Shown here piece after piece: positions 5,949 to 54,186 of a stretch of DNA of 64,000 nt; the stretch's first letter is position 1; every line of letters begins with the position of its first letter. The position numbers and the translations under genes were made by a program. The notes below the pieces were generated by a model, which ran no database searches, was not told the DNA's origin, and saw only the letters and a program-made list of their open reading frames with translations. Source of the stretch: Methylophaga sp. OBS4 (GTDB lineage: Bacteria > Pseudomonadota > Gammaproteobacteria > Nitrosococcales > Methylophagaceae); assembly GCF_026319305.1 (NCBI RefSeq), contig NZ_JAPDMV010000009.1, positions 1 through 64,000 on the forward strand. The letters are read 5' to 3'.

Positions 5949-6572
5949 TCAGCGTGTTATCACTTCTGACACCCGTTGCTTTAAAACGGGCAATACCTCG
6001 AGTTCAAACCAAGGATTGCGTTTCAGCCAGATATTATTTCTTGGGCTGGGGTGGGGCAGAGGCATTATGGCAGGCCAGTATGTACGCCATGCCCGAACAG
6101 TGTCTGTCAGTGAGGCTTTCGCCTCGGGCAAATGATATGCCATGGCATAGTTGCCGATCACCAAGGTCAGTTGCAGATGACTTAAATGAGACAGCAGTTG
6201 CGCTCGCCAGGCTTCGGCACACTCCGGCCGTGGCGGTAGGTCACCGCTTTTAACCTTGCCCGGATAACAAAATCCCATCGGCAAAATAGCGAGCTTGTCA
6301 GCATCATAAAAAGTCTGTCGGTCCAAGCCCATCCAGTCACGCAGCCGATCACCACTGGCATCGTTAAATGGCACGCCGGTTTCGTGCACCTTCAAACCCG
6401 GAGCCTGACCGGCAATCAGAATTCGCGCTTCGGGGCTGAACTGCAACACAGGCTTGGGCCCCAGAGGCAAAAACTCACGACAAATAGTGCAATTAAGAAT
6501 ATCTGCATGTAATTGTTGCGCACTTTTCGCCAGTTGCTCCCGCCAGTCGTCGCCGGCAACATCGCCATCCAA
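5949..6572 (-). CDS. Uracil-DNA-glycosylase-family protein
   Basis: A 207-residue protein of the uracil-DNA glycosylase superfamily (family 4/5-like). Motif 1 appears as GQAPGLKVHETGVPFND (about residues 55-71) and motif 2 as PLPHPSPRN (about 170-178). A pair of cysteines near the start (NCTICREFLPLGPKP) resembles the cluster region of these proteins, but the full four-cysteine set is not obvious. Members remove uracil from DNA; many paralogues are untested. No ATG precedes the conserved region in frame, so the start is the TTG at 6572 or a nearby rare codon. Confidence 0.72.
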   Translation of the reverse strand: MDGDVAGDDWREQLAKSAQQLHADILNCTICREFLPLGPKPVLQFSPEARILIAGQAPGLKVHETGVPFNDASGDRLRDWMGLDRQTFYDADKLAILPMGFCYPGKVKSGDLPPRPECAEAWRAQLLSHLSHLQLTLVIGNYAMAYHLPEAKASLTDTVRAWRTYWPAIMPLPHPSPRNNIWLKRNPWFELEVLPVLKQRVSEVITR

Positions 6573-6844
6573 AAAAACATACGGTTACAACACTGATTTC
6601 CCCAGCTTAACTCGTAAAGCGTCTACCTTTTTCATAATCCGGCATGGCCACGCTTAAACAAGCGATATCAACAAAATAAAATAGTCTCGTTCATGAAAAA
6701 TACAAAGGAGCCCCGCGCAGGACTTTTATCATATATCCAGCCAAGCTAGAATTCAGATTGAGACTGAAAGAGTAGCGTGGGTTTTAAATCCATACTACTC
6801 TGTGTTTTAAAAGCCTGGGCTGATCGAAACGGGAGTGGGCGTTC

Positions 6845-7225
6845 ATGAATAACTGGCTGTATCTTTCCATTTTTGGGCTGTTGTTCGCCATCATCGCTTT
6901 GTGGACTTATTCCAAGGTTCGAGCATCCAGGAACAATAAACCGCACCCAGAAAAAATACAAAGCTTTCACTGCATCACTATTTACCCCTGTCCTGGCGCC
7001 TGTGAAAACGTCAAACAATTATGCGGCAAGAAATTTCTGGCCAGCGAAGCCCCCATATTGCCTGTTCCCGGTTGCACCGCCAAGCAATGCAGATGCGCGT
7101 ATCAACATTACGACGACCGGCGCAGCGGTAAGGATCGCAGACACGAATACATCGAAATGGAACGAGCCGCTTCTGAAAATGAGCATCGTGCTAAAAACAA
7201 ACCCGATCGTCGACAACAGGATTGA
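6845..7225 (+). CDS. Small cysteine-rich membrane-anchored hypothetical protein
   Basis: A 126-residue protein of unknown function. One N-terminal hydrophobic helix (about residues 4-22) would anchor it in the inner membrane. It is followed by a cytoplasmic cysteine-rich stretch (CPGACENVKQLCG and GCTAKQCRC) and a strongly charged C-terminus containing DRRSGKDRR. Five to six cysteines in so short a span suggest metal binding or disulfides. A GGGAG element lies upstream of the ATG. It stands alone between two minus-strand genes. I do not recognise the family. Confidence 0.6.
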   Translation: MNNWLYLSIFGLLFAIIALWTYSKVRASRNNKPHPEKIQSFHCITIYPCPGACENVKQLCGKKFLASEAPILPVPGCTAKQCRCAYQHYDDRRSGKDRRHEYIEMERAASENEHRAKNKPDRRQQD

Positions 7226-7417
7226 ACAGACTTCGGCGGTCTCGGTTAATTTTTATTTCCGGGAACTTGTCAGGGGAGGATATCACCTGGACACATGATC
7301 GAAAACCTGAATAGGGTGTCGAAGTAATAGATGAATTGGAGAAACTCTGGGTCACACTGCAGACCACTCTATGACCTTGGTTTCCCTTCACTCAGCTCGA
7401 TTCTTCTTTTCTTTTAA

Positions 7418-21923: not shown

Positions 21924-22132
21924 AACTAACCCCGGCTTGAGTTTGAATGTTTCGAGAACTGATTGAATAGTTATAACAGACTGGCGACACATTGAAACGG
22001 AAATGCATAACATCGCCGGTAGAGATAGACCTGCGGCCAGACTGGTTAATTATACTAGCAATCTTGATAATAATTCGTTAGTCCAGGATAAACACTACCC
22101 GGTAAAAGCGCGAGCGACAGGGTGAAAACGGA

Positions 22133-23320
22133 CTAGGTGCCGGTCAGATAAATCATTTCCGGCGCTTCGTGCATCAAAAAGTTCTGATGCGAGATATTCC
22201 AGGCATAGGCGCCTGCCAGGCTGAACACTATCCAGTCCCCAATAGCTATCGAGTCGACGTGCTGCCGCCGCGCCAGGACATCTTTGGGCGTGCAAAGCTG
22301 CCCCACCAGCGTGACTTTCTGGTTTTCGATACTGACAGCATTACCACGCTGGCGTGGCAATATGCTGAACGGGTGATCGTGGCTTTGAGCCGCCGGCGTC
22401 CGGAAATGGTGTGTGCCGCCATGGCCGATAGCAAACCATTCACCAAGATTGTTTTTGATATCCAGCACCTCCATCACGTAAAAGCCGCAGGTAGCGGTCA
22501 CATAGCGGCCACACTCGAAACGCAGGCGAAAACGCTCGGCCTGCTGCTCGCAGATCACTGTGGGCAGTTGCTGGCAAAAACGCTGCCAGTCAAAATGCTG
22601 TGACGGGGACAGATAGTTAATACCCAGACCGCCGCCAACGTTAATCACCGGTACATCAATAGCAAACTGTCCGCACCACTTTCTCACGCTACGCAAATAA
22701 AGTCCGATCAATGCCAGATGATTATCGACGTTCAACTGATGTGACATCAGGTGAAAATGAAACCCTTGTAACTGCAACAGCGGCACTGCTTTTATCATGG
22801 CCAGCGCCTGTGGCAACTCCGATTCATCCAGTCCGAAAGGCGTCGGCTTGCCGCCCATGGTCAGGCGCGTGGTAGGCAGGCCTTCCAGGGCAATATTCAT
22901 TCGTAACATGATCTGCACCGGTGTCTGATGCCGGCTCACAATATCGGCCAAACGCTGCAGTTCGGTCAGGCTCTCGACATGAATAGTTTCAATCTGCTTG
23001 TCCACCGCCGACGTTAACTCTGCCGGCAATTTTCCCGGACCACCGAAAATCAGACGATGTTCGGGACAATGCTGCAGCAGCCAGTTCAGTTCGCCACCGG
23101 AAGCCGCTTCAAAGCCGTCAACATAAGGCTTCAATGTCTGCAGAATAGCCGGATCCGGATTGGCTTTGGCCGCATAAAAAAGCTCGCAGCCCGCCGGCAG
23201 CGCCGCTTTCATGTCGGCAATATGCCGGCGCAGCGCCGACAGGTCGTAAACATAACCACAAAATGGCGTTGAACGCTGTTGTTGTAACTGGCTAAGTTCC
23301 TGATTAACTGATGGGGTCAT
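22133..23320 (-). CDS. pvsE: PvsE-like PLP-dependent decarboxylase (siderophore)
   Basis: A 395-residue PLP enzyme of the alanine-racemase-fold decarboxylases (diaminopimelate/ornithine type). The Schiff-base Lys is in YAAKANPD (K52), the phosphate-binding glycines are in NVGGGLGINY, and the C-terminal CTPKDVLA and AGAYAWNISH segments match SbnH/PvsE-like enzymes. In vibrioferrin synthesis PvsE decarboxylates O-citryl-serine to the ethanolamine derivative. It is the last gene of the operon, 2 bp after pvsD. Confidence 0.85.
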   Translation of the reverse strand: MTPSVNQELSQLQQQRSTPFCGYVYDLSALRRHIADMKAALPAGCELFYAAKANPDPAILQTLKPYVDGFEAASGGELNWLLQHCPEHRLIFGGPGKLPAELTSAVDKQIETIHVESLTELQRLADIVSRHQTPVQIMLRMNIALEGLPTTRLTMGGKPTPFGLDESELPQALAMIKAVPLLQLQGFHFHLMSHQLNVDNHLALIGLYLRSVRKWCGQFAIDVPVINVGGGLGINYLSPSQHFDWQRFCQQLPTVICEQQAERFRLRFECGRYVTATCGFYVMEVLDIKNNLGEWFAIGHGGTHHFRTPAAQSHDHPFSILPRQRGNAVSIENQKVTLVGQLCTPKDVLARRQHVDSIAIGDWIVFSLAGAYAWNISHQNFLMHEAPEMIYLTGT

Positions 23321-23322
23321 GA

Positions 23323-25092
23323 TTATTGTTCCCCCATTGGATGCGCGATTTGCGTATAGTCGGCTTGCTTGTCGGCACGCTGCAGCAGACGTGTGCGAAG
23401 ATTGTTTTTTGATGGTATGGGGTGGCCGGCCAAGACGGCGACAATTTCGGGTTGATGACCCCAGGCTGAAAGTTTTTCTGCAAGCAGCGCCCAGCCTTGT
23501 TGCTCAAGCTGTCGGTCGCCGTCGGCCAGATGAAACAGTGCTTCTGACAGGTTATTGATCAACAGACAATAAGCAATACGTTGCCAGCCTTTCTCTCGTG
23601 AATAATAAATTGACTGGCGGGCCCGCGCCGACAAGCCGTCCAGTTCGTGCTGCGGCCAACGAACAGGATCCAATTTGGTGCCTTCCAGATCACGGATCCA
23701 GATCCGCTGCGGGACCCCATCACCCAGCCCAATCAGCGTATTTTGCAGATGCGGTTCAAAAATAATGCCTTCATCAAAAAAGGCACTTAACACACCGGGC
23801 AGCAAGGCATCCAAATAAGCTGATAACCACAGCAAACCGGCCTGCTGGTAACTGATTTCGCGCTGACTAGCCAACACCTGTATACGGGCCGGTAATTGAC
23901 TCTCACCAAACCGGTCCCAGGCAAATACGGCCCCCGCCATCACAATCTCGTACTGCTGCCGCTCATCAGCTGTCAGGTTCTGCCGGTATAACAAACCGAA
24001 GCACTCCTGCAGATGGCGTAATTCCACTTCCTCACCCGCTTGAGCCAGCGTCGAAAAATCCAGGCTGGTTGCCGCAGGCTCGCGCATCAGGCGGAAAGCA
24101 GGATAATGTTTTTCCAGGCGTTGAAATGCCCCCTCCAGGCGCTCGCTCAGATATACGGCGCTCTCCAGTTCATACCAGGCATTCTTGCGCACACAATTGG
24201 TCAGGCGCACATGAATCGAACACTTCATAAAATAAGGCTGATCGGCGCGATACAGCGTTCTGACCGAAGAAGTGGGCGACAGGGTCAGTCCCCGGTAGCC
24301 CAATGGCGTGATCAGGCCGTGCTGGCTGGCGGCCTGATAAAGAGGCGAGCGTAAAATATGTTCCACCTCCCAGGGGTGACAGGGATAGCAGTTCTCTTCT
24401 CCGGCCAGCGTGCCCAGCATCGACAGCACATCCCGGGCACCACGCTGCTGCAGCAAAACCGGATCGATCCGGAACCAGAACAGCGAAAACTCGGCACCGA
24501 CTTCCGGCGCACAGCTCAGCAGATCCGGCATCGAAACGCCGGTGCGGCTTTTAGGTGTAGGATGAAACGGGTGGCCCCACAATAAACTTTGCTCACTGTT
24601 AATAAACGCATCATCGTTTTTGATGACCGGCGCGCTCAGGAAAGCATAGGTAACGGCAATACTGTTTTCAATCTGTTGCTGCAACTCGATATTCAGCGTT
24701 TGCTGCAGCACGGCGGCCATTTCCTTCAGCAGCACATTGATGGCATCAACAGCTGTTACCGGCCGCCAGGGACGACCAAACTGTTTAACAAACGGGGCGG
24801 AATTAAAACGGCCTCGGCTCAGCAGGCTCCACCGGTCCGCTTTGATCGCCAGCAACGCCTCACTCTGCGGCAGCGCCAGTTTGACTACTTCTCCCGGCAG
24901 CATTTTGCTGGTCAGCGCCAAAGGCAGATTACCAAGGGAGGAAACCGTCACCTGCCCGGCAGGCAGCGCAAACTCACGGATATAACAGTTTAGCAAGGCG
25001 GTAAAGGTCTGGTACTCCGCTTCCACCCGCAGTGAATCGACCAACGGCTGGAATGAAGAAAAGGATTCATCGGCTGCTAGTAACGTTGACAT
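23323..25092 (-). CDS. pvsD: PvsD-like IucA/IucC siderophore synthetase
   Basis: NRPS-independent siderophore (NIS) synthetase, 589 residues, of the IucA/IucC family. WGHPFHPTPKSRTG (about residues 145-158) is the family ATP-binding motif, and KCSIHVRLTNCVRK and IFEPHLQNTLIG are further signatures. PvsD joins citrate to serine in vibrioferrin synthesis. I took the ATG at 25092 (AGGAG 7 nt upstream), which overlaps the end of the MFS gene by 26 bp. Substrate assignment rests on gene order, not on residues. Confidence 0.88.
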   Translation of the reverse strand: MSTLLAADESFSSFQPLVDSLRVEAEYQTFTALLNCYIREFALPAGQVTVSSLGNLPLALTSKMLPGEVVKLALPQSEALLAIKADRWSLLSRGRFNSAPFVKQFGRPWRPVTAVDAINVLLKEMAAVLQQTLNIELQQQIENSIAVTYAFLSAPVIKNDDAFINSEQSLLWGHPFHPTPKSRTGVSMPDLLSCAPEVGAEFSLFWFRIDPVLLQQRGARDVLSMLGTLAGEENCYPCHPWEVEHILRSPLYQAASQHGLITPLGYRGLTLSPTSSVRTLYRADQPYFMKCSIHVRLTNCVRKNAWYELESAVYLSERLEGAFQRLEKHYPAFRLMREPAATSLDFSTLAQAGEEVELRHLQECFGLLYRQNLTADERQQYEIVMAGAVFAWDRFGESQLPARIQVLASQREISYQQAGLLWLSAYLDALLPGVLSAFFDEGIIFEPHLQNTLIGLGDGVPQRIWIRDLEGTKLDPVRWPQHELDGLSARARQSIYYSREKGWQRIAYCLLINNLSEALFHLADGDRQLEQQGWALLAEKLSAWGHQPEIVAVLAGHPIPSKNNLRTRLLQRADKQADYTQIAHPMGEQ

Positions 25093-26245
25093 CTTGAGGC
25101 TCCTTGAGCATGAGTAGAAATACGATAATGAATGCCGTGCAGGCCACCAGCGATGACGCAATGAAAGGGGCACGGGTATCCACATAGCTGCAGAGCCAGC
25201 CGGCTACAACACCCGCTATCACACCGGCCCATTTACCCACTGCGTCCAGCCGGCCAAACCATGAACCAGCACTCTGTTTGAGCGTTGCCTGACTGATCAA
25301 TTGATTAAGGCCGCAATACGCCAGAAAAATACCGATGCCGAACATTATTCGGGCAGCCACCAAAGCCATGCTGCTGTCCAGAAAGGCTTGCCAGCCGGCC
25401 GCCAGCATCAGTAATAACAAGCCGAGTGCCAGGTGTCGGTGATCTTGCCGGCGTTGATGCATCAGCGGCAGCAATAACAGATAAAACAAATGCGGCAGGC
25501 TGTACAACACTCCGACAGCGCTGGCCTGGCTGACCCAATGACTGGCATAAGGCAGGAAATAAGGGAACGTCACCACCATCGAAAAAGTGAACAGAAACTG
25601 TAATAACAGCAACCAAGCCAGCGGCCACGATTGCCGGTCAGCCGCGGTTTTGCCTTTTATGCCGGCCGCTTGCGCCAGCTGCGCTGATAAGCTGTGCTCT
25701 ACCGGCAAAAAGAGCGCCAGTAACAATCCGGTCAGGGGCAGCAGGGCCAGCCACAGATAAAGACGCTGCGGCGATGCAGTATAGATCTCCAGCAACAGGC
25801 CCAATCCAATCGGCGCCAGCACCAGTGCCAAGCGGGCGGTAAACTGCGTCCAATTTAATGCCTTGCCCAAGGCCCCAGTGTCGAATTGCTCTGCCAGATA
25901 ACTATTGGCCGCCGCCAGCGTACCGCCGAACAGCCCCTGCATCACCAGCGCCAACACAAAGATCGGCAAAGACGGTGCAATCCCGGCCAGCACGAATGCC
26001 AGCACCAAGCCGCCCAAAGCACGCAGCAACGAGGTTTTACGGCCAAAACGATCGGCAAACTTACCCCACCACGGTGCGGTTAACGCCGTCATCACTGTTG
26101 GCAGGCTGAACATTACGCCTATCCATAAGCTGTCAGCAGCCACGCCCAGACCGGATAACAGACGGGGCAGGAACAGCGGCATACCGAGCACGGTAAATGC
26201 CGCCAGAAAGTGGCAGGCCAGGACTACCGGTAAAACACGTCCCAT
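25067..26245 (-). CDS. pvsC: PvsC-like MFS siderophore exporter
   Basis: Major facilitator transporter of 392 residues with about 12 membrane helices. The loop 2-3 motif WWGKFADRFGRKTSLL is the MFS signature. Placed between the two NIS synthetase genes, exactly as pvsC is, it most likely exports the finished siderophore across the inner membrane. Its ATG shares one base with the pvsB stop (TGATG), so translation is coupled. Confidence 0.87.
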   Translation of the reverse strand: MGRVLPVVLACHFLAAFTVLGMPLFLPRLLSGLGVAADSLWIGVMFSLPTVMTALTAPWWGKFADRFGRKTSLLRALGGLVLAFVLAGIAPSLPIFVLALVMQGLFGGTLAAANSYLAEQFDTGALGKALNWTQFTARLALVLAPIGLGLLLEIYTASPQRLYLWLALLPLTGLLLALFLPVEHSLSAQLAQAAGIKGKTAADRQSWPLAWLLLLQFLFTFSMVVTFPYFLPYASHWVSQASAVGVLYSLPHLFYLLLLPLMHQRRQDHRHLALGLLLLMLAAGWQAFLDSSMALVAARIMFGIGIFLAYCGLNQLISQATLKQSAGSWFGRLDAVGKWAGVIAGVVAGWLCSYVDTRAPFIASSLVACTAFIIVFLLMLKEPQDVNVTSSR

Positions 26246-27954
26246 CAGCAGTACCCAAGCTGTAGAAAATTGGGGCCGGTATGACCGTAATATTTATTGA
26301 TATCGGCGGCGCCCGATGCCTGTTTGCTCAGCAGGCTGCCGCTCAATAATAGATATTTCACCGGTTGCACCGGCTCTTCAAACAGACAAGACCGGGCACA
26401 GTCGGTGGCCACGCCGGCATCATCAAGCTGTTGCAGTGTCCTGTTCAGGGCCTCACGCAGCGTTTGGTAACCGGCCTCCCGCTTCAGTACGCCCTGGTCG
26501 GCCAGGTTTTCCAGCACCGCAGCCAGACCCAACTGCAAGGTAATGGTAATAAACATCTGTGCCAGCGCCAGCTCGTTATCAACCCTGATCCGCTGATCCT
26601 GCAGCTGCGCCATCCGCTGCTGCAAATCAGGACATGCCGCGCTGAAACGCTGAGGCCATAAGCGGGCAGCATCATTGTCCTTCATCACCAAACTGAGCGG
26701 CTGGCCCGGCGTAAAGCTCAATACGGCATTTTGCTGGTTGGACTCCAAGGCGATGCCGTAACGCAGCCAAAGCGTCAGATGCACATCCGCCATCAGTTGG
26801 CAGTACTGCTGCCACCATGTAGCCACATCAGGCATATCAGGCTGCTCCAGTACATAGCAGAGATAAGGGCGGCCATCGGGCATCGGACTGCTCAAAGCCG
26901 CCACCGGCGCCAATGTTTCCTGCGACCGTGGCTGTGGATAACAACGCAATAAAAAGGCAAACAGTTTCTCGTCACCGAGATGACCGCAAAAGCTTTCATC
27001 GACATGGCGATAGCGGCCATGCAACAGCGGATCCCGGCTGGCCAATAACGGCAGCACTTCAGCAAACCACTGGCCGTCGTACAAGGTAGACGGTTTGATC
27101 AAGCGGATATTTTTCTGGCCCAAGGTGCGCATCGCCAGCGGCACTTTCAGATGTTGATCAGGATAGTCCGCCAATTGCACCGTGCGCACCGACAAGGTCG
27201 GATAAACCGGCAAACAGGGCTTCGGCGCCCGCAAAGCACCGGCGGGCAGGCTGTCAAGCTGCTGCCAGGTCAGCGGATGCACCGGAATAAGAAAATGGCT
27301 GCGCGCCAGATCTGCCGGCAGCCCCACTTGCTGAAAAGACGGCCACCAAGCTGGTTCGGCCTGGGGCGCAGTCAGTGTCAGCTGCTGGCGTTCCACAGCC
27401 AGCCAGTGCAAATCAAAGGCCTGGCAGAATTCCGGCGCATATTTCAACAGACTTGAATTATCAAAGCCAAACTTGGCGCGGGCCGTCGGATAATAAGGAT
27501 GATCAAGATAGCTGGCGATTTGATCGGCATGGCGTAACCGTTCTCCCCAGCTCTGCTGTTGTAACGGCCGCAACAGTTCATGTTGCAGTTGTCGATAAGC
27601 CTGCTGGCAGAACTCGCCTTGTTCGCATGCTGCTGCCGCTTCCTCGGCATATTGACGGTACAGATCCCTAGTTTCCTCATCCTGTTGGTACAACAGCTGC
27701 GTCAACCAGCACATGTAACCGGATTCGTGCTGCCAGTCTGAGCGGTGTACCTGCCACGACGGTGCAATGGCCACCCAGGGCTGCATATAATGACTGGCGC
27801 GGACAGCAAGCCTTAGGGGCTGCTCAAGATGATCAACATACAACCAGTGTTGGCCTTCATCTTCGACAATACGCCCGGCAGACAACAGATCGGCGACATT
27901 TTCGCGCAGGCAGGCGTTAATAATCCGCAGGGTGATGTAATCATGCTGACTCAT
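26245..27954 (-). CDS. pvsB: PvsB-like IucA/IucC siderophore synthetase
   Basis: Second NIS synthetase of the operon, 569 residues. The HPLTWQQL segment (about residue 240) after a PVHP-like motif, LSVRTV, and the C-terminal MKDNDAARLWP belong to the IucA/IucC fold. In vibrioferrin synthesis PvsB adds 2-oxoglutarate. The ATG at 27954 shares one base with the pvsA stop, with GGGAG upstream. The N-terminal active-site motif is less canonical than in the pvsD product, as often seen between the NIS types. Confidence 0.86.
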   Translation of the reverse strand: MSQHDYITLRIINACLRENVADLLSAGRIVEDEGQHWLYVDHLEQPLRLAVRASHYMQPWVAIAPSWQVHRSDWQHESGYMCWLTQLLYQQDEETRDLYRQYAEEAAAACEQGEFCQQAYRQLQHELLRPLQQQSWGERLRHADQIASYLDHPYYPTARAKFGFDNSSLLKYAPEFCQAFDLHWLAVERQQLTLTAPQAEPAWWPSFQQVGLPADLARSHFLIPVHPLTWQQLDSLPAGALRAPKPCLPVYPTLSVRTVQLADYPDQHLKVPLAMRTLGQKNIRLIKPSTLYDGQWFAEVLPLLASRDPLLHGRYRHVDESFCGHLGDEKLFAFLLRCYPQPRSQETLAPVAALSSPMPDGRPYLCYVLEQPDMPDVATWWQQYCQLMADVHLTLWLRYGIALESNQQNAVLSFTPGQPLSLVMKDNDAARLWPQRFSAACPDLQQRMAQLQDQRIRVDNELALAQMFITITLQLGLAAVLENLADQGVLKREAGYQTLREALNRTLQQLDDAGVATDCARSCLFEEPVQPVKYLLLSGSLLSKQASGAADINKYYGHTGPNFLQLGYC

Positions 27955-29120
27955 CAGGCAATCTCCCACGCCAGTTGCGCCAGCGTTTGCCGAGTCAGGT
28001 TCGACAGCGCCGCGTCATCTTCTGCCCGCAGATAGAGCACGCCCAGGTAATCTTTGTTGGAGTAAGTCAGGTTAATGCTCTCGCCTGCTTGTTTCAGCGG
28101 CTGGAAACTGACACCAGCAAGCTCGGGCACTGTCGGGGCTTGCTTTAAGATGCCTGGACGCTCGGCGACCAAATAATGGATCAAGGCCTGCTCCGCGGAT
28201 GTCTGTATCTGTGACAACGGTTGTCCGAGATGTAATTTCAGGATCGGCGTAAACCAGCCTTGGGGTAATAAACGATCAAGTAAAAACTCACGGCCATCGC
28301 CTATGCTGCGGTAATTGATTTCAACCAATACCGGACCGTTATCCGTGGCGATAAATTCACTGTGACAGACACCAAAACCCACACCAAACCGGCGGATCTG
28401 GTCAAGCGCTTCTGTTTGCCATTGCTGTGCCTGTTTTCCCGGCCAGCGTGCCTGCTTCTCAATAAAATACGGCGGCTCGGACAGTTCAACATCAAAACCG
28501 CCAATGGCTGTCACATCCTGCCCGTCACCCAGTGTTTCCAGTGTAAATAACGGGCCCTCAATAAAGGATTCCAGCAATAAGGATTCTTGCTGGGCAGACC
28601 GCTTTACCAGTTGCAGCAATGCTGCCGCATCATCCACCCGACTGACATCCATCGACGCCACCCCCTGGCTGGGTTTGACCACCAGCGGATAGGGCCAGTC
28701 CGCCTCAATTTTACCGCCGGGTAACAATTGCTTTGACCAGGTACTGGGCAAATCCAGCTGCTGCAAACGGCGGCGCATACGCAGCTTTTCTTTTGCCGCA
28801 TAACAGATCTGCCAGTTTTTCCCCGGCAGGTTAAGCGCGGCGGCAGCGATTGCAGTCGCGGTTTGCAGATGGTCGCTATTGGAAAATATTGCCGCCGGGC
28901 TGACACCTTTTTCGGTCAGGGCATCCAATATCGCCAGCGGATTGAACACATCACACTCGATGACGCTGACCCGGCGGCCCAGCAACGCGCTATGGGCTTT
29001 ACCATGATCAGTCAGCAGAATGATTTCATAGCCCAGCATCCGGGCCGCCGGTATAAAACCATCGACGACCGCGGCATTAACAACGTGCGTGACAAAAACA
29101 AAAGGAAGGGATTGCGGCAT
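27954..29120 (-). CDS. pvsA: PvsA-like ATP-grasp ligase
   Basis: ATP-grasp carboxylate-amine ligase of 388 residues. The central region (about residues 105-290) has the ATP-grasp features: WPYPLVVKPSQGVASMDVSR for nucleotide binding, LLLESFIEG, and the Mg ligands in VLVEINYRSIGDG. PvsA attaches alanine in vibrioferrin synthesis, forming an amide. The ATG at 29120 has AGAGG 7 nt upstream and is preferred to an upstream TTG. It lies 35 bp after the aldolase-like gene. Confidence 0.84.
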   Translation of the reverse strand: MPQSLPFVFVTHVVNAAVVDGFIPAARMLGYEIILLTDHGKAHSALLGRRVSVIECDVFNPLAILDALTEKGVSPAAIFSNSDHLQTATAIAAAALNLPGKNWQICYAAKEKLRMRRRLQQLDLPSTWSKQLLPGGKIEADWPYPLVVKPSQGVASMDVSRVDDAAALLQLVKRSAQQESLLLESFIEGPLFTLETLGDGQDVTAIGGFDVELSEPPYFIEKQARWPGKQAQQWQTEALDQIRRFGVGFGVCHSEFIATDNGPVLVEINYRSIGDGREFLLDRLLPQGWFTPILKLHLGQPLSQIQTSAEQALIHYLVAERPGILKQAPTVPELAGVSFQPLKQAGESINLTYSNKDYLGVLYLRAEDDAALSNLTRQTLAQLAWEIA

Positions 29121-29155
29121 AACGTTACCTCTGAAATTTTGAAAACAACGGGTTA

Positions 29156-29929
29156 TCAAGCAACTGTAGGGTGCATTTCATGCAGTCGCCCGGCGAGGGT
29201 TCGATACAGGAAACCGCGGTCCTCACCACAAAGAAAAGTGGTGACGCCGGCCTCGCGCCATAAACTGAGTTGCTCTGCGCTGCGCGGATTCGCGCAAAAA
29301 GGCATGCCATGCTGCTGACAGCGCTGCGCCAGCTGGCATAAGGCAAGTTGCACATCAGCATGCATCGGTTCCGGGCCCAGCCCCATATTCAGCGCCAGAT
29401 CCAATGCGCCTTCCATCACCATGCTGACGCCATCGACTTTCAGAATCTCATCAATGGCCGCTACGCCCGCCGCCGATTCAATCATCGGCACCAGTAACAA
29501 TTGCTGGTTCGCCAGGCTGATATAATCTGCCAGCGGCAATTTGCCGAAACCTGTTACTGAACCGCCGGTAATCCCACGCTTTCCTCTGGGCGGGAAAAAC
29601 ATGGCCTTGCTGATCTCAACCAGCTGGTCGACATTTTCTGCTTGCGGAACAACAATACCGGCGGCGCCCATATCAAGCACCCGGCCGATTTGCTTAAGAT
29701 CAACACTGGCCAGGCGTATGAGCGCTGCGCAGTGATTAGCCATCGCCAGCTGAATGCACTGCTTCAGCAGGGGTTCGTCATGCGGCAGATGCTCCAGATC
29801 CAGAATGACAAAGTCATAACCAGCGGTAGCGATCATTTCCACAATCACCGGATGGGGCACAGAGTTCAGTAAACCGTAAACAGGCTCTGAAGCCGACAAG
29901 GCGGCATTGATAGGTAAGGGTCTCAACAT
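29156..29929 (-). CDS. HpcH/HpaI-family aldolase, SbnG-like citrate synthase
   Basis: A 257-residue TIM-barrel enzyme of the HpcH/HpaI aldolase family. Metal and substrate residues are seen in DFVILDLEHLPHDE, MIESAAGVAAIDEI and VMEGALDLALN. The last segment resembles SbnG, which makes citrate from oxaloacetate and acetyl-CoA for staphyloferrin B, more than pathway aldolases. As first gene of a citrate-based siderophore operon it probably supplies citrate under iron starvation. The ATG at 29929 was chosen because an upstream GTG would place the Fur box inside the gene. Confidence 0.8.
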   Translation of the reverse strand: MLRPLPINAALSASEPVYGLLNSVPHPVIVEMIATAGYDFVILDLEHLPHDEPLLKQCIQLAMANHCAALIRLASVDLKQIGRVLDMGAAGIVVPQAENVDQLVEISKAMFFPPRGKRGITGGSVTGFGKLPLADYISLANQQLLLVPMIESAAGVAAIDEILKVDGVSMVMEGALDLALNMGLGPEPMHADVQLALCQLAQRCQQHGMPFCANPRSAEQLSLWREAGVTTFLCGEDRGFLYRTLAGRLHEMHPTVA

Positions 29930-29948
29930 ATGATTATCTAAATCTAAA

Positions 29949-29963
29949 TGATAACGATTATTG
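29949..29963 (-). promoter_or_regulatory. Fur box of the siderophore operon
   Basis: TGATAACGATTATTG matches the 7-1-7 Fur consensus TGATAATnATTATCA at 11 of the 14 defined positions and lies 20 bp before the first gene of the operon. Iron-dependent Fur repression of all six genes is expected. Confidence 0.7.
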
Positions 29964-30263
29964 TTTATTAATTGAGACCACACCTTAATTCAAAGCTCAG
30001 GCTTTGTAAAGGTAAGGAAGACGTGGAATTGTGACGGTGCTCACAAGAATGCTCTGCCAAAACACCATGGGGACGCTGGGCCCGTCAATATCACATTGAA
30101 AGAGCCCCTAATCGGGCGTTGGCATTCAAAGAGCACTTAGTCCGTGCATGTTGCAGGCAGGTTAATTTGCCGCTATTGCGTGAGAGAAGGTGTAGCTTTG
30201 TATAAATGACCGGGCTGAGAGGCGGACTTCTTTACCGCCAAGGCTTATCTGCGGCGATAAGGC
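29964..30263. other. Intergenic stretch upstream of the siderophore operon
   Basis: About 300 bp between the Fur box and the ychF terminator. I see no coding region, tRNA or clear riboswitch. A short hairpin (CTTATC/GATAAG near 30243-30260) is the only structure noticed. Confidence 0.4.
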
Positions 30264-30289
30264 AAGCCCCTTCCGTGCTGGAGGGGCTT
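30264..30289 (-). terminator. Probable ychF terminator hairpin
   Basis: Stem AAGCCCC (30264-30270) / GGGGCTT (30283-30289), 38 bp beyond the ychF stop. The T-run on the minus strand is weak, so termination is inferred from the stem and its position. Confidence 0.45.
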
Positions 30290-30326
30290 GAATGCATGTT
30301 ATTGAATCTGCCGGAACTGGGCTTTG

Positions 30327-31418
30327 TCAGACATTGAAGCGGAAGTGCATCACATCACCATCATTGATAATGTAGTCCTTGCCTTCCAACCTCCATTTGC
30401 CGGCATCTTTCGCACCCTGTTCACCGTTATATTGCACAAAATCATCATAACTGACGACTTCGGCGCGGATAAAACCTTTCTGAAAGTCGGTATGGATAAC
30501 GCCCGCACCTTCCGGTGCGGTGGCGCCCAGTTTGACGGTCCAGGCGCGCACTTCTTTGACCCCGGCGGTGAAGTAGGTATGCAGTCCCAGCAGTTGATAA
30601 CCACTGCGAATCACACGGTTCAGACCCGGTTCATCCAGCCCCAGCTCTTCGAGGAAATCGATTTTGTCGTCATCTTCCAGATCGGCAATTTCGGCTTCAA
30701 TCGCAGCGCAAATCGGTACCACAATGGCATTTTCTTTTTCTGCCAGTGCATTTACCGCATCCAGCGCAGGATTCTTTTCAAAACCGTCTTCCGCTACATT
30801 GGCGATATACATAGTCGGTTTGACGGTCAGCAGGTGCAAACCATTCATCAAAGCCCGCTGCTCCTTGTCCAGATTCATGGCTCTGACCGGCAATCCCTGA
30901 TCCAGGTGATCACGCATTTGCATCAGCAGTTCCAGACGGGCCCTGGCGGCTTTATCACCGCTTTTGGCATCACGGGCAGTTTTAGTCGTGGCTTTTTCAA
31001 CACTTTCCAGGTCGGCCAGAGCCAGCTCGGTGTTGATAACCTCGATATCATCCAACGGCGAAACCTGACCGGCGACATGCACCACATTGTCATCTTCAAA
31101 ACAACGCACCACATGTGCAATCGCATCGGTTTCACGGATATTAGCAAGAAATTTATTGCCCAGACCTTCGCCTTTGGATGCGCCGGCTACCAAACCGGCG
31201 ATATCGACAAATTCCATCGTGGTAGGCAATACCCGTTGCGGTTTGACGATTTCCGCCAGTTTATCCATGCGCGGATCCGGTACCGGTACAATGCCGACGT
31301 TGGGTTCGATGGTACAAAACGGATAGTTCTGGGCATCGATACCAGCCTGGGTCAACGCATTGAATAAAGTTGATTTGCCCACATTCGGCAGGCCGACAAT
31401 ACCGCACTTAAATCCCAT
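30327..31418 (-). CDS. ychF: Ribosome-associated ATPase YchF (OLA1 family)
   Basis: Universally conserved Obg-like P-loop protein of 363 residues that prefers ATP and associates with ribosomes. G1 is GLPNVGKST (about residues 8-16) and G3 is DIAGLV. The family-typical C-terminal TGS domain (about 280-363) ends in [10 protein letters not shown]...[10 protein letters not shown]. It is the last gene of the run from the TPR protein to ychF, 8 bp after pth, a pairing seen in many Gammaproteobacteria. Confidence 0.95.
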
Positions 31419-51216: not shown

Positions 51217-54186
51217 CTATTCCATTCCTTTGAATTCAATTACAAAATTTGCTCCATGTAATGGAGTTATATTCTTATCAATTTCATAACTAATTTTATG
51301 ACCACCAGCGGCAAGATTAGCCTTAGCTAAATACAGTCCAACACCTCTACCGCCACTCATTTTTCTGGTAAAAAATAATGAAAATAATTTCTGGACATCC
51401 AGTTCATCTACCCCTGGGCCATTATCTGAAACAAATACTTTGTCTCCGACTAAATCCAGCCTGATTTCCTTGTTATCAATATCAGAAACTTGTAACCAGT
51501 AACGACTGTTATTCACTAAGTTGATGAAGACGGGGAAAAGCCTGGCGGGCTGTTCAAAAACTCGAATCCGTTTGAATGTGTCTGTTGCATTAAACAAAAT
51601 ATTGCTGCTTTTTAGCTGGTTTGAGTAGAAAGCATCCAGATACTCATAAATTTCCTGACCGGTAATCCATTTTTGAACTCGTTGGCCTGATAATTTAAGT
51701 GGTGATAAAAACCTCAGTTGTCCTGTCAGTCCGTGATACCCCATCTGGAGTTGAGCTATTGCCTCTGACTGCTGCACCTCTTCAGGTAATTGATTGATTC
51801 CTTGCCCGATCATGTCATCATAGGATTGCAATTCATGTCCCAAAATTTCGACAGCAATCCCCAACTGAGCCAAAGAATTTAATCTTTCCACTTCTGAACG
51901 AAGTTCGTCATTTTCTTCAGTACCTGCAATAGCGAGCATCTCAAGATCAATACTTTCCGTCAGAGTCTCCAGAGCCCTGATATATGATTCAAAAACCTCT
52001 GTATTTTCATCATCGATTTGAGTCCTTACTTCTTCCATCAATGACAAACTCTCTCTCAGATCGAGACTCTTCATTTCAACCCGCTTCAAAAGTGGAAGTG
52101 TTGTTTCGTGGAAGATCTTATTTCTTTCGTCGATTAACGCGCTGATTCTCTGATTCTCTGCCTCATGTAGTGATGAAATTTCAGACTTCCACTTTCTAAT
52201 CCTACTGTGAATAAATCCGGCACTTTTTTGTCTCTGTTTTTCAAAGACCTCTAAAGGCTTAGGCGGTTTTATTCTCTGAATAGCCTCATGAATTTTTTGC
52301 TCCCATCTCTCAAGCATCGAATAACACATGCTCATCAGATATCGATATTCTCGATAAGCATCTTCTAAACTACCAAGTTCTTGAGGGGCTCCTGAGAGCC
52401 TATACTCTGCATATTCTGTACGAAATGACTCCAGCTCTTCTTGAGCTAGAAACAGCTCAGACTCTGATTCGATCTTGAGACTTTCAACGTAATCCGTTAG
52501 CTGTTCCGTTAGCTCTGGTAACTGTTTATTAAACCGCTTAAGTTTCCCTCTGAATTGAGATCGATGTTTTTTTCGGAGTTTATTTCTTTCTTGCCGGAGC
52601 TTTTCCTCTCTATTTGCAGCCTGAAGCTCAGGAAGTATTGTTTGTCTCAGCTCAGAATCAGTTCCAAAATATTTTCTGCCCGTGCGCATCAAAATATTTT
52701 CTATCAGCACTTTAAGAGTCTTTGCTGCAACGTTATCTATAAAACCTTCTCGGCCCGCCTTATCTTTAAGATTTGGGTTTTTTTCTCGACTCAATGCCAA
52801 ACGGCCGAACATCCTTCTGGCATTCCAAAACTCCCTTCCCGCATGTCTACTTCTTCGAGATTCAATTTCAAAAAAGTCATTATCAACTCGACCATAGGGC
52901 AAAACTCGTAAACTATTTCGGAACACCATGAAACCAGCATATTTTGATGCCATCGTTTCAAAATATTTAAACTCCTCTGCTGAGTGAGATGTATTTTGAG
53001 CTTGTTGCTCAAAAGTTGAAAAGTAGAGATCAACCGGACCAACTTTCCAGTCACGTCTTTGATGAATCTTGACGTCTTTTGGAGGATCGATCGTCAATGT
53101 TTTACCTTCTTCAACCCATTCCCCAAAAACTTTTATTTGGCCATGAAAAACACCCTTACCATCAATATAGCCATCAACCACATGTTCTAATTCTGTAGTT
53201 TTACTACGATTGAACTCTTTTGCCGGTCCCAATATTAATTTTGACTTGTCACTCTTATGAACAGAAACACTATAAGTAAACTCTGGATCGACCCCATTTA
53301 TATCAGGAATATTAGGGTCCCAAAATGGATCCACGAAACTGGATAAAGTCTCAAAAAAACGTTCTTGTGACCTTTGTTCCATTGGACCTGTAATTCCCTC
53401 TGACAAATAATTTCTCAGGTCGTAATTGATACCGGAAAGTAAAAGGGCTGTACCAGATGGACTTTCCTCATTCCAAACCTGCCACTTTTGAATATGCCTT
53501 TCTACAAAACGCGTATTGATTATTGTTTGTGCAATCTGTTCTGAAGGAACAACGTAGTTGTTGTCATCATTTTCTTCTTTGCTAATCCTGTCATATGTTT
53601 GCCAGGCTGCTTCTACACGCTGCTGATGCTCTTGGTCTTCAACATCGCCCCACACATTTGTGGTCAGTTTCTCGAATAACTCTGGCAATAAGTTGAACAG
53701 CTCCGACTTGTTATCAAACTGTGTTACGGGAATTTTTATATCTGACAAAATCAGAAACGGGTTTTCAAAAATGCGCCAATCTATTAAGGCAGCAACGAAA
53801 GAATTATTTTTTCGTTTTGAAACAAGCAGAAGAAGCGGCCCAAGGTTTGCTGATGAAAGACGACCTATACCCTTTTGCCCTTGCTTGGGTCTTGGCTTAA
53901 GACCATTTCGGTCTTCTTGCGGAGTCTTATTATTATTAAATTTGGACTCTGTTCCGACTACAAGCCATCGATCTACAAATTCTTGATAGGACATTCCATG
54001 ACCGTTATCAAGGATGTTTGCTACTGGCTCTTCTCCATCGTAGATATTAAGCTCAACAGAACTCGCGTAAGCATCATAAGCATTTTTCCACAGCTCAGAG
54101 ATAGCTGTAGGACAATCGGCGATTTGTTCTCTGCCGAGGTGATCGACTGTTCTTGCTTGCGTTCTGAAAGCAATCGATTCAATCAT
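51217..54186 (-). CDS. Double-GHKL ATPase / sensor-kinase-like protein
   Basis: A 989-residue protein with an ATPase domain at each end. The N-terminal GHKL domain is of the MutL/Hsp90/MORC kind: N-box ELWKNAYDA (31-39), G1 LDNGHGM (59-65), G2 GQKGIGRLS (103-111). A long charged, partly coiled-coil middle (about 530-770) follows. The C-terminus is histidine-kinase-like: a His in EILGHELQSY (about 784), N-box FINLVNNSRYW, G1 VSDNGPG and G2 GGRGVGLYLAK (about 945-955). The ATG at 54186 (CAGGAG upstream) overlaps the methyltransferase stop (ATGA). It could sense DNA or methylation status and signal to the receiver protein encoded next; that is inference. No membrane segment is seen. Confidence 0.8.
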   Translation of the reverse strand: MIESIAFRTQARTVDHLGREQIADCPTAISELWKNAYDAYASSVELNIYDGEEPVANILDNGHGMSYQEFVDRWLVVGTESKFNNNKTPQEDRNGLKPRPKQGQKGIGRLSSANLGPLLLLVSKRKNNSFVAALIDWRIFENPFLILSDIKIPVTQFDNKSELFNLLPELFEKLTTNVWGDVEDQEHQQRVEAAWQTYDRISKEENDDNNYVVPSEQIAQTIINTRFVERHIQKWQVWNEESPSGTALLLSGINYDLRNYLSEGITGPMEQRSQERFFETLSSFVDPFWDPNIPDINGVDPEFTYSVSVHKSDKSKLILGPAKEFNRSKTTELEHVVDGYIDGKGVFHGQIKVFGEWVEEGKTLTIDPPKDVKIHQRRDWKVGPVDLYFSTFEQQAQNTSHSAEEFKYFETMASKYAGFMVFRNSLRVLPYGRVDNDFFEIESRRSRHAGREFWNARRMFGRLALSREKNPNLKDKAGREGFIDNVAAKTLKVLIENILMRTGRKYFGTDSELRQTILPELQAANREEKLRQERNKLRKKHRSQFRGKLKRFNKQLPELTEQLTDYVESLKIESESELFLAQEELESFRTEYAEYRLSGAPQELGSLEDAYREYRYLMSMCYSMLERWEQKIHEAIQRIKPPKPLEVFEKQRQKSAGFIHSRIRKWKSEISSLHEAENQRISALIDERNKIFHETTLPLLKRVEMKSLDLRESLSLMEEVRTQIDDENTEVFESYIRALETLTESIDLEMLAIAGTEENDELRSEVERLNSLAQLGIAVEILGHELQSYDDMIGQGINQLPEEVQQSEAIAQLQMGYHGLTGQLRFLSPLKLSGQRVQKWITGQEIYEYLDAFYSNQLKSSNILFNATDTFKRIRVFEQPARLFPVFINLVNNSRYWLQVSDIDNKEIRLDLVGDKVFVSDNGPGVDELDVQKLFSLFFTRKMSGGRGVGLYLAKANLAAGGHKISYEIDKNITPLHGANFVIEFKGME

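Follow-up and report, generated by a model that had tools for sequence, protein, structure and literature searches.

What does a six-gene operon on the minus strand of a Methylophaga sp. OBS4 contig make, what is the SbnG-like gene at its head, and how did it come to lie beside ychF? The locus belongs to the first 64,000 nucleotides of contig NZ_JAPDMV010000009.1 (the window), in which six co-oriented open frames between positions 22133 and 29929 follow one another in the order SbnG-like-PvsA-B-C-D-E (Table 1). The best explanation overall, which the sequence makes quite probable, is a complete operon for making and exporting the siderophore vibrioferrin or a close relative, carried on an island at ychF and served by an unlinked receptor.

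Gene content and probable product

Along the operon, the Pfam assignments are HpcH_HpaI, a weak ATP-grasp match, IucA_IucC with FhuF, MFS_1 (major facilitator superfamily, MFS), again IucA_IucC with FhuF, and the Orn/DAP/Arg decarboxylase family. The initial annotation had read the last five genes as ATP-grasp, IucA/C, MFS, IucA/C and pyridoxal phosphate (PLP) decarboxylase, that is, as pvsA-B-C-D-E; these domains and 42-58% identity to the Vibrio proteins bear it out. Vibrio pvsABCDE has the same five genes in identical order, whereas its receptor genes are adjacent and no SbnG-clade gene lies in the flanks fetched. Identity is higher to the Pantoea soli proteins (PvsA 64%, PvsB 66%, PvsC 57%, PvsD 59%, PvsE 66%). 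Among 20 loci compared, P. soli was closest for SbnG, PvsB, PvsC and PvsE, and Zobellella stood 1-2 points above it for PvsA and PvsD. The only IucA/IucC genes found in the genome (completeness 83.6%) are those of this operon.

Two structural details differ from the initial annotation. Its span of 22133-29963 does hold the six frames, but the most likely start of the first gene is the ATG at 29929, matching the homologue starts, rather than at 29963, a position that falls inside the promoter/Fur-like site of this gene. The reading frames, described as overlapping, do overlap at three of the five junctions (pvsA/B and pvsB/C by 1 nt, pvsC/D by 26 nt, with the pvsD start picked from its ribosome-binding site and homologue overlap), but gaps of 2 nt and 35 nt separate pvsD from pvsE and the SbnG-like gene from pvsA.

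Table 1. Features of the siderophore locus (Vibrio identities are to V. harveyi and V. diabolicus; NIS, nonribosomal-peptide-synthetase-independent siderophore)
Feature	Position	Strand	Basis
8.3-kb island between ychF and pldA, with the siderophore operon as sole content	22018..30330		ychF-pldA adjacency in congeners; G+C content
3' end of ychF, copy one of a 29-bp direct repeat, attachment-site-like	30331..30359	-	25 of 29 positions shared with the second copy
Remnant repeat copy (ychF 3' end) before pldA, then native-looking ychF-pldA spacer	21989..22017	-	congener alignment
Fur-like site, weak alone: an overlapping pair of 13/19 matches (29944, 29950)	29944..29968	-	19-mer match
Predicted SbnG-clade citrate synthase (HpcH/HpaI fold), 257 amino acids, operon gene 1	29156..29929	-	phmmer, tree, residues, fold
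PvsA-like ATP-grasp ligase	27954..29120	-	Pfam; identity to Vibrio 47-48%
PvsB-like NIS synthetase (IucA/IucC and FhuF)	26245..27954	-	Pfam; identity to Vibrio 47%
Predicted PvsC-like MFS exporter	25067..26245	-	Pfam; identity to Vibrio 42-43%
PvsD-like NIS synthetase	23323..25092	-	Pfam; identity to Vibrio 44-45%
PvsE-like PLP decarboxylase	22133..23320	-	Pfam; identity to Vibrio 57-58%

The exact pvsA-E gene set and order, including the ATP-grasp enzyme, argues for vibrioferrin rather than for another hydroxycarboxylate siderophore, be it a vibrioferrin analogue or a staphyloferrin-B-like compound. So do the absence from the island of any SbnA/SbnB-like gene (diaminopropionate synthesis) and the case of Xanthomonas, whose genes are 45-56% identical to those of the window and which makes vibrioferrin, as seen for X. 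campestris by high-performance liquid chromatography against a standard (excerpt of PMC5130282). We therefore regard a product other than vibrioferrin as unlikely, although every identity to Vibrio is below 60%, the substrate choice of NIS enzymes is not reliably readable from sequence, and the NIS enzymes of the window match the SbnC/SbnF models weakly, far under their cut-offs. A staphyloferrin-B-like system is described for Methylobacterium in the available part of PMC9301485; lanthanide uptake as an added role was considered from the same source, with no sign of it here.

The first gene and its association with pvs

A phmmer search against PDB sequences returned S. aureus SbnG (4tv5, E 2.1e-56; 4tv6, E 5.4e-56), followed by an HpaI aldolase at E 5e-27. 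We then placed the protein in a tree of 87 rows, obtained from 115 (L003, L021 and L022 being omitted from these as copies) by removing 28 near-duplicates from Xanthomonas and Pseudomonas. A clade of 51 rows with support 100/99 unites all siderophore-linked rows with the window protein and S. aureus SbnG, and the nearest kin of the window protein are from Pantoea (100/98). Thirty six of 37 aldolase-scored rows are outside this clade; the one inside it, L133, has 226 bits, a very long branch and a PvsE-like neighbor.

Residues E46, H47, R72, E151 and D177 are present in the window protein and invariant in 78 SbnG-clade rows and 37 aldolases; being common to aldolases, they are not diagnostic alone. 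E46, H47, R72 and D177 correspond to active-site residues of HpaI aldolases, and E151Q is the variant in structure 4tv6. The clade-marking residues V93, G122, L133, A175, F211, C212, P215, R216 and R238 are also all present (S. aureus SbnG has I at position 93), with the proviso that the groups compared were set by hidden Markov model score, which makes this list partly circular and the tree the better support; the models were built from eight sequences each, window included, so that the window's own scores are meaningless. The AlphaFold model (mean predicted local distance difference test score 90.9) has SbnG 4tv5 as its first-ranked Foldseek match (root-mean-square deviation 1.6).

By sequence, tree, residues and predicted fold, the first gene thus belongs to the SbnG citrate-synthase clade, in agreement with the resemblance noted initially, and none of the tested active-site residues, whose loss had been named as a possible contradiction, is missing. 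That it is instead a catabolic class II aldolase of the HpaI/GarL type standing beside the operon by chance, as the name mhpE of its Xanthomonas counterpart might imply, is very improbable: the tree and the clade residues led us to reject this identity, and linkage to siderophore genes across many genera and a closest fold that is SbnG also speak against it, even though the aldolase catalytic residues are kept and the Pfam/NCBIfam labels read HpcH_HpaI, HpaI or GarL (the NCBIfam models all under cut-offs).

The SbnG-like gene had been called an extra to the pvs set; the loci examined do not agree with this. They come from a named-genome scan with a PvsE alignment, of which we used the best 80 of 571 confirmed loci, a choice biased to close relatives, and absence of an SbnG-clade gene here means absence within about 10 kb of pvs. 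All of pvsA-E are present in 76 of the 80 loci, and 63 of these 76, including Xanthomonas, Pseudomonas and Marinobacter, have an SbnG-clade gene. It stands directly before pvsA in 15 (Marinobacter, Pantoea, Zobellella, Limnobacter, some Pseudomonas, Luteibacter and an unclassified gammaproteobacterial metagenome-assembled genome); before pvsA at a distance of about 2 kb in 40 (most Pseudomonas, Xanthomonas, Dyella, Rhodanobacter, Azotobacter), the gap holding a receptor-type frame in all four loci inspected; directly after pvsE in seven (Halomonas, Litchfieldella, Guyparkeria, Marinobacterium, Methylomonas, Methylobacter); and on the opposite strand in one (Shewanella). Thirteen complete loci have no such gene in their flanks (Vibrio, Psychromonas, Psychrobacter, Reinekea, Marinomonas). 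Plasmid records occur both with it (Pantoea soli, Cupriavidus necator H16, Rhodococcus WAY2) and without it (Vibrio fortis, Vibrio THAF190c, Piscirickettsia). In the loci examined, an SbnG-type gene thus appears to be the usual companion of pvs outside Vibrio, with Vibrio as the exception. A plasmid of Pseudomonas mandelii JR-1 (L040) carries an SbnG-clade gene near a Tn3-family transposase and without pvs neighbors.

In a sample of the class, PvsE was found at E 1e-110 or better in six of 369 genomes. Three of the six, the window's own included, have the SbnG gene in the cluster; in the stretches read from the other three it was not seen. One of these stretches (L191, G358:C1:560000-579000) contains a decaying pvs operon, with pvsA, pvsB and pvsC homologues broken into several frames and pvsD and pvsE whole.

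Among the closest known systems are the loci of a Pantoea soli plasmid and of Pantoea wallisii, with an SbnG-clade gene immediately 5' of pvsA; unlike the window, P. soli has an adjoining receptor and substrate-binding protein. The Xanthomonas xss (vibrioferrin/xanthoferrin) cluster, described as mhpE, xsuA, xssA-E in the accessible part of PMC6804348, also places an SbnG-clade gene before its pvsA-E homologues, but the receptor gene xsuA lies between that gene and xssA, and the window locus has no receptor. According to an excerpt of PMC1790865, a Fur box precedes the X. campestris gene (XCC3049, 'mphE'), and XCC3050 is part of a six-gene cluster resembling pvuA-pvsABCDE; the Fur-like site of the window is weak. 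Tree and locus scan place the gene occupying the mhpE position in the SbnG clade, an identification resting on the surveyed Xanthomonas loci and not on published papers. S. aureus SbnG shares clade and fold with the window protein and is a dedicated citrate supply for an NIS siderophore (PMC11308372 and PMC7139808, in part), a role that the window protein may play by analogy; staphyloferrin B is another siderophore, made with SbnA, SbnB and three NIS enzymes. SbnG-like enzymes in clusters of other citrate siderophores are mentioned in the portion of the review PMC11308372 that was available. Our literature search returned no paper pairing 'SbnG' with 'vibrioferrin', though the link may stand in primary SbnG or xanthoferrin papers outside that search, and the text seen of PMC4465626 and PMC7756342, on vibrioferrin and citrate synthase, does not address the pairing. 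The pairing is known in pieces.

The island at the 3' end of ychF

The gene ychF was detected in 22 of 23 congeners, and pldA follows it immediately in 21 of the 22; the remaining one (G011) has other sequence after ychF, with neither pldA nor the operon. In the nine congeners measured, the ychF-pldA spacer is about 53-67 bp. Comparison of the window with these spacers revealed the 29-bp repeat, which is not among the 20 families shown by a direct-repeat scan; beyond the remnant copy the sequence resembles the native spacer found in two congeners (L173 and L178). The G+C content is 54.5% in the island (measured over 22014-30326) versus 46.5% and 50.8% in the flanks. The 29-bp duplication and the shift in G+C content point to an insertion. 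These features identify the operon as an island gained by horizontal transfer at the ychF 3' end, which the initial annotation had missed and which was presumably integrated site-specifically.

The SbnG gene was found in none of the 23 congeners, and NIS genes were found in two, being just 23-27% identical over the aligned stretches. Ancestral presence of the operon in the genus, followed by loss from the other species, as the incompleteness of several congener assemblies might allow, is extremely improbable in view of these counts and identities, the conserved ychF-pldA adjacency, the duplication with its G+C shift, and the Pantoea kinship of the SbnG gene. The two congeners with NIS genes (L023 in G002, L024 in G001) have an NIS siderophore cluster of another kind, dissimilar to pvs.

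A degenerate form of the ychF-end motif occurs at six loci in viral contigs. In four of them (L202, L204, L205, L206) the motif has a tyrosine integrase no more than about 1.2 kb away, which suggests that other elements possibly use the site; L203 and L207 have no integrase in the frames printed and resemble plain host DNA. The 3' end of ychF may thus be a recurrent attachment site for unrelated elements. In the parts available of the literature on ychF, genomic islands and integrases, ychF appears only as a marker gene. Elsewhere in this genome, two 4170-bp stretches of contig C16 (L026 and L027, matches 6082-7251 and 51811-52980) are exact inverted copies, either a real duplication or an assembly artefact.

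Uptake, regulation and proposed pathway

The island contains no TonB receptor, in line with the earlier statement that uptake must be encoded elsewhere; the lack of a linked PsuA/PvuA gene does not exclude biosynthesis. Twelve TonB receptor matches were found in the genome, and one of them, on contig C47 (L029/L188), is a likely receptor for the ferric siderophore of the operon. The identity of this candidate to receptors encoded no more than 10 kb from pvs is 62-65% for Marinobacter algicola, Halomonas beimenensis and Guyparkeria; to 12 further pvs-linked receptors it is 39-47%, and to the Cupriavidus receptor and one of the two in Vibrio fortis only 26-32%, over short stretches. Upstream of it lies a Fur-like site matching at 17/19 positions. 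Another receptor of this genome (L037, G000:C4:75254-76540) is 51% identical to that of a Sodalis SbnG/IucA-IucC siderophore cluster.

The Fur box claimed for the operon does lie just upstream of the first gene but is weak: when 126 stretches of 250 bp across the window were sampled, 10 scored 13/19 or more. A strict 19-mer search allowing up to three mismatches gave no match, and a Fur 15-mer with three mismatches occurs once before the operon and 10 times in the window (3.0 expected). Scanning the sequence ahead of the first gene for promoters and terminators gave nothing on the operon strand. In 11 relatives with the SbnG gene in front, the Fur-like score before it is 12-16/19 (at least 13 in 10 of the 11; 13 in the window), and scores of 9-11 precede the gene where it stands at the rear. 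The operon site gains credit because it is just upstream of the start and similar sites precede the same gene in relatives.

Several observations weigh against the explanation given at the outset. The Fur-like site of the operon is weak. The C47 receptor is FecA-like and could carry ferric citrate, and one congener of the 23 (G017), in which no NIS gene was seen, has an orthologue of it (73%). A single query for an inner-membrane importer, the substrate-binding protein of the Pantoea locus, had no match in the 83.6%-complete genome. Finally, no integrase frame is listed among the open reading frames within the island, which is therefore at most a cargo-only remnant or was mobilised in trans.

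Beyond the gene content, we infer each step of the following pathway. Under iron limitation, Fur repression of the operon would be released. The first enzyme would form citrate from oxaloacetate and acetyl-CoA, and PvsE would decarboxylate serine to ethanolamine. Citrate, ethanolamine, alanine and 2-oxoglutarate would be linked by the ATP-grasp enzyme together with both NIS synthetases, the roles of PvsA, PvsB and PvsD following proposals labelled as untested in the available text of PMC5577590. The MFS protein would send the siderophore out of the cell, and the ferric complex would re-enter through the unlinked FecA-like receptor on C47.

The initial annotation had also proposed that a dedicated citrate synthase would make siderophore supply independent of the TCA cycle and so be useful for an autotroph. 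The window does encode a form-I-type RuBisCO large subunit (41-1483, at the extreme end of contig C5; NCBIfam PRK04208, 808.6 bits, cut-off 438) with a divergent LysR-type regulator (1645-2568), and an ordinary citrate synthase is also present in the genome. The SbnG-pvs pair, however, is also found in Pseudomonas, Xanthomonas, Marinobacter and others, and most of its carriers are heterotrophs, so that the argument from autotrophy is weak; we saw no link and set this rationale aside.

Within the loci examined, these results correct the view of an SbnG-type gene as an oddity in vibrioferrin operons, and they predict that Xanthomonas mhpE encodes a citrate synthase. We give about even chances to a broader proposal, in which SbnG-pvs is a cargo-only mobile cassette attaching at the 3' end of ychF and SbnG-type citrate supply is a default though unnamed component of non-Vibrio vibrioferrin systems (mhpE in Xanthomonas). 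If this is true, a single 8.3-kb insertion, driven by an integrase acting in trans, could make a siderophore producer of a species that was not one, the receptor being gained separately. The ychF island also represents a compact way for a species to gain a siderophore in a genus largely without such genes.

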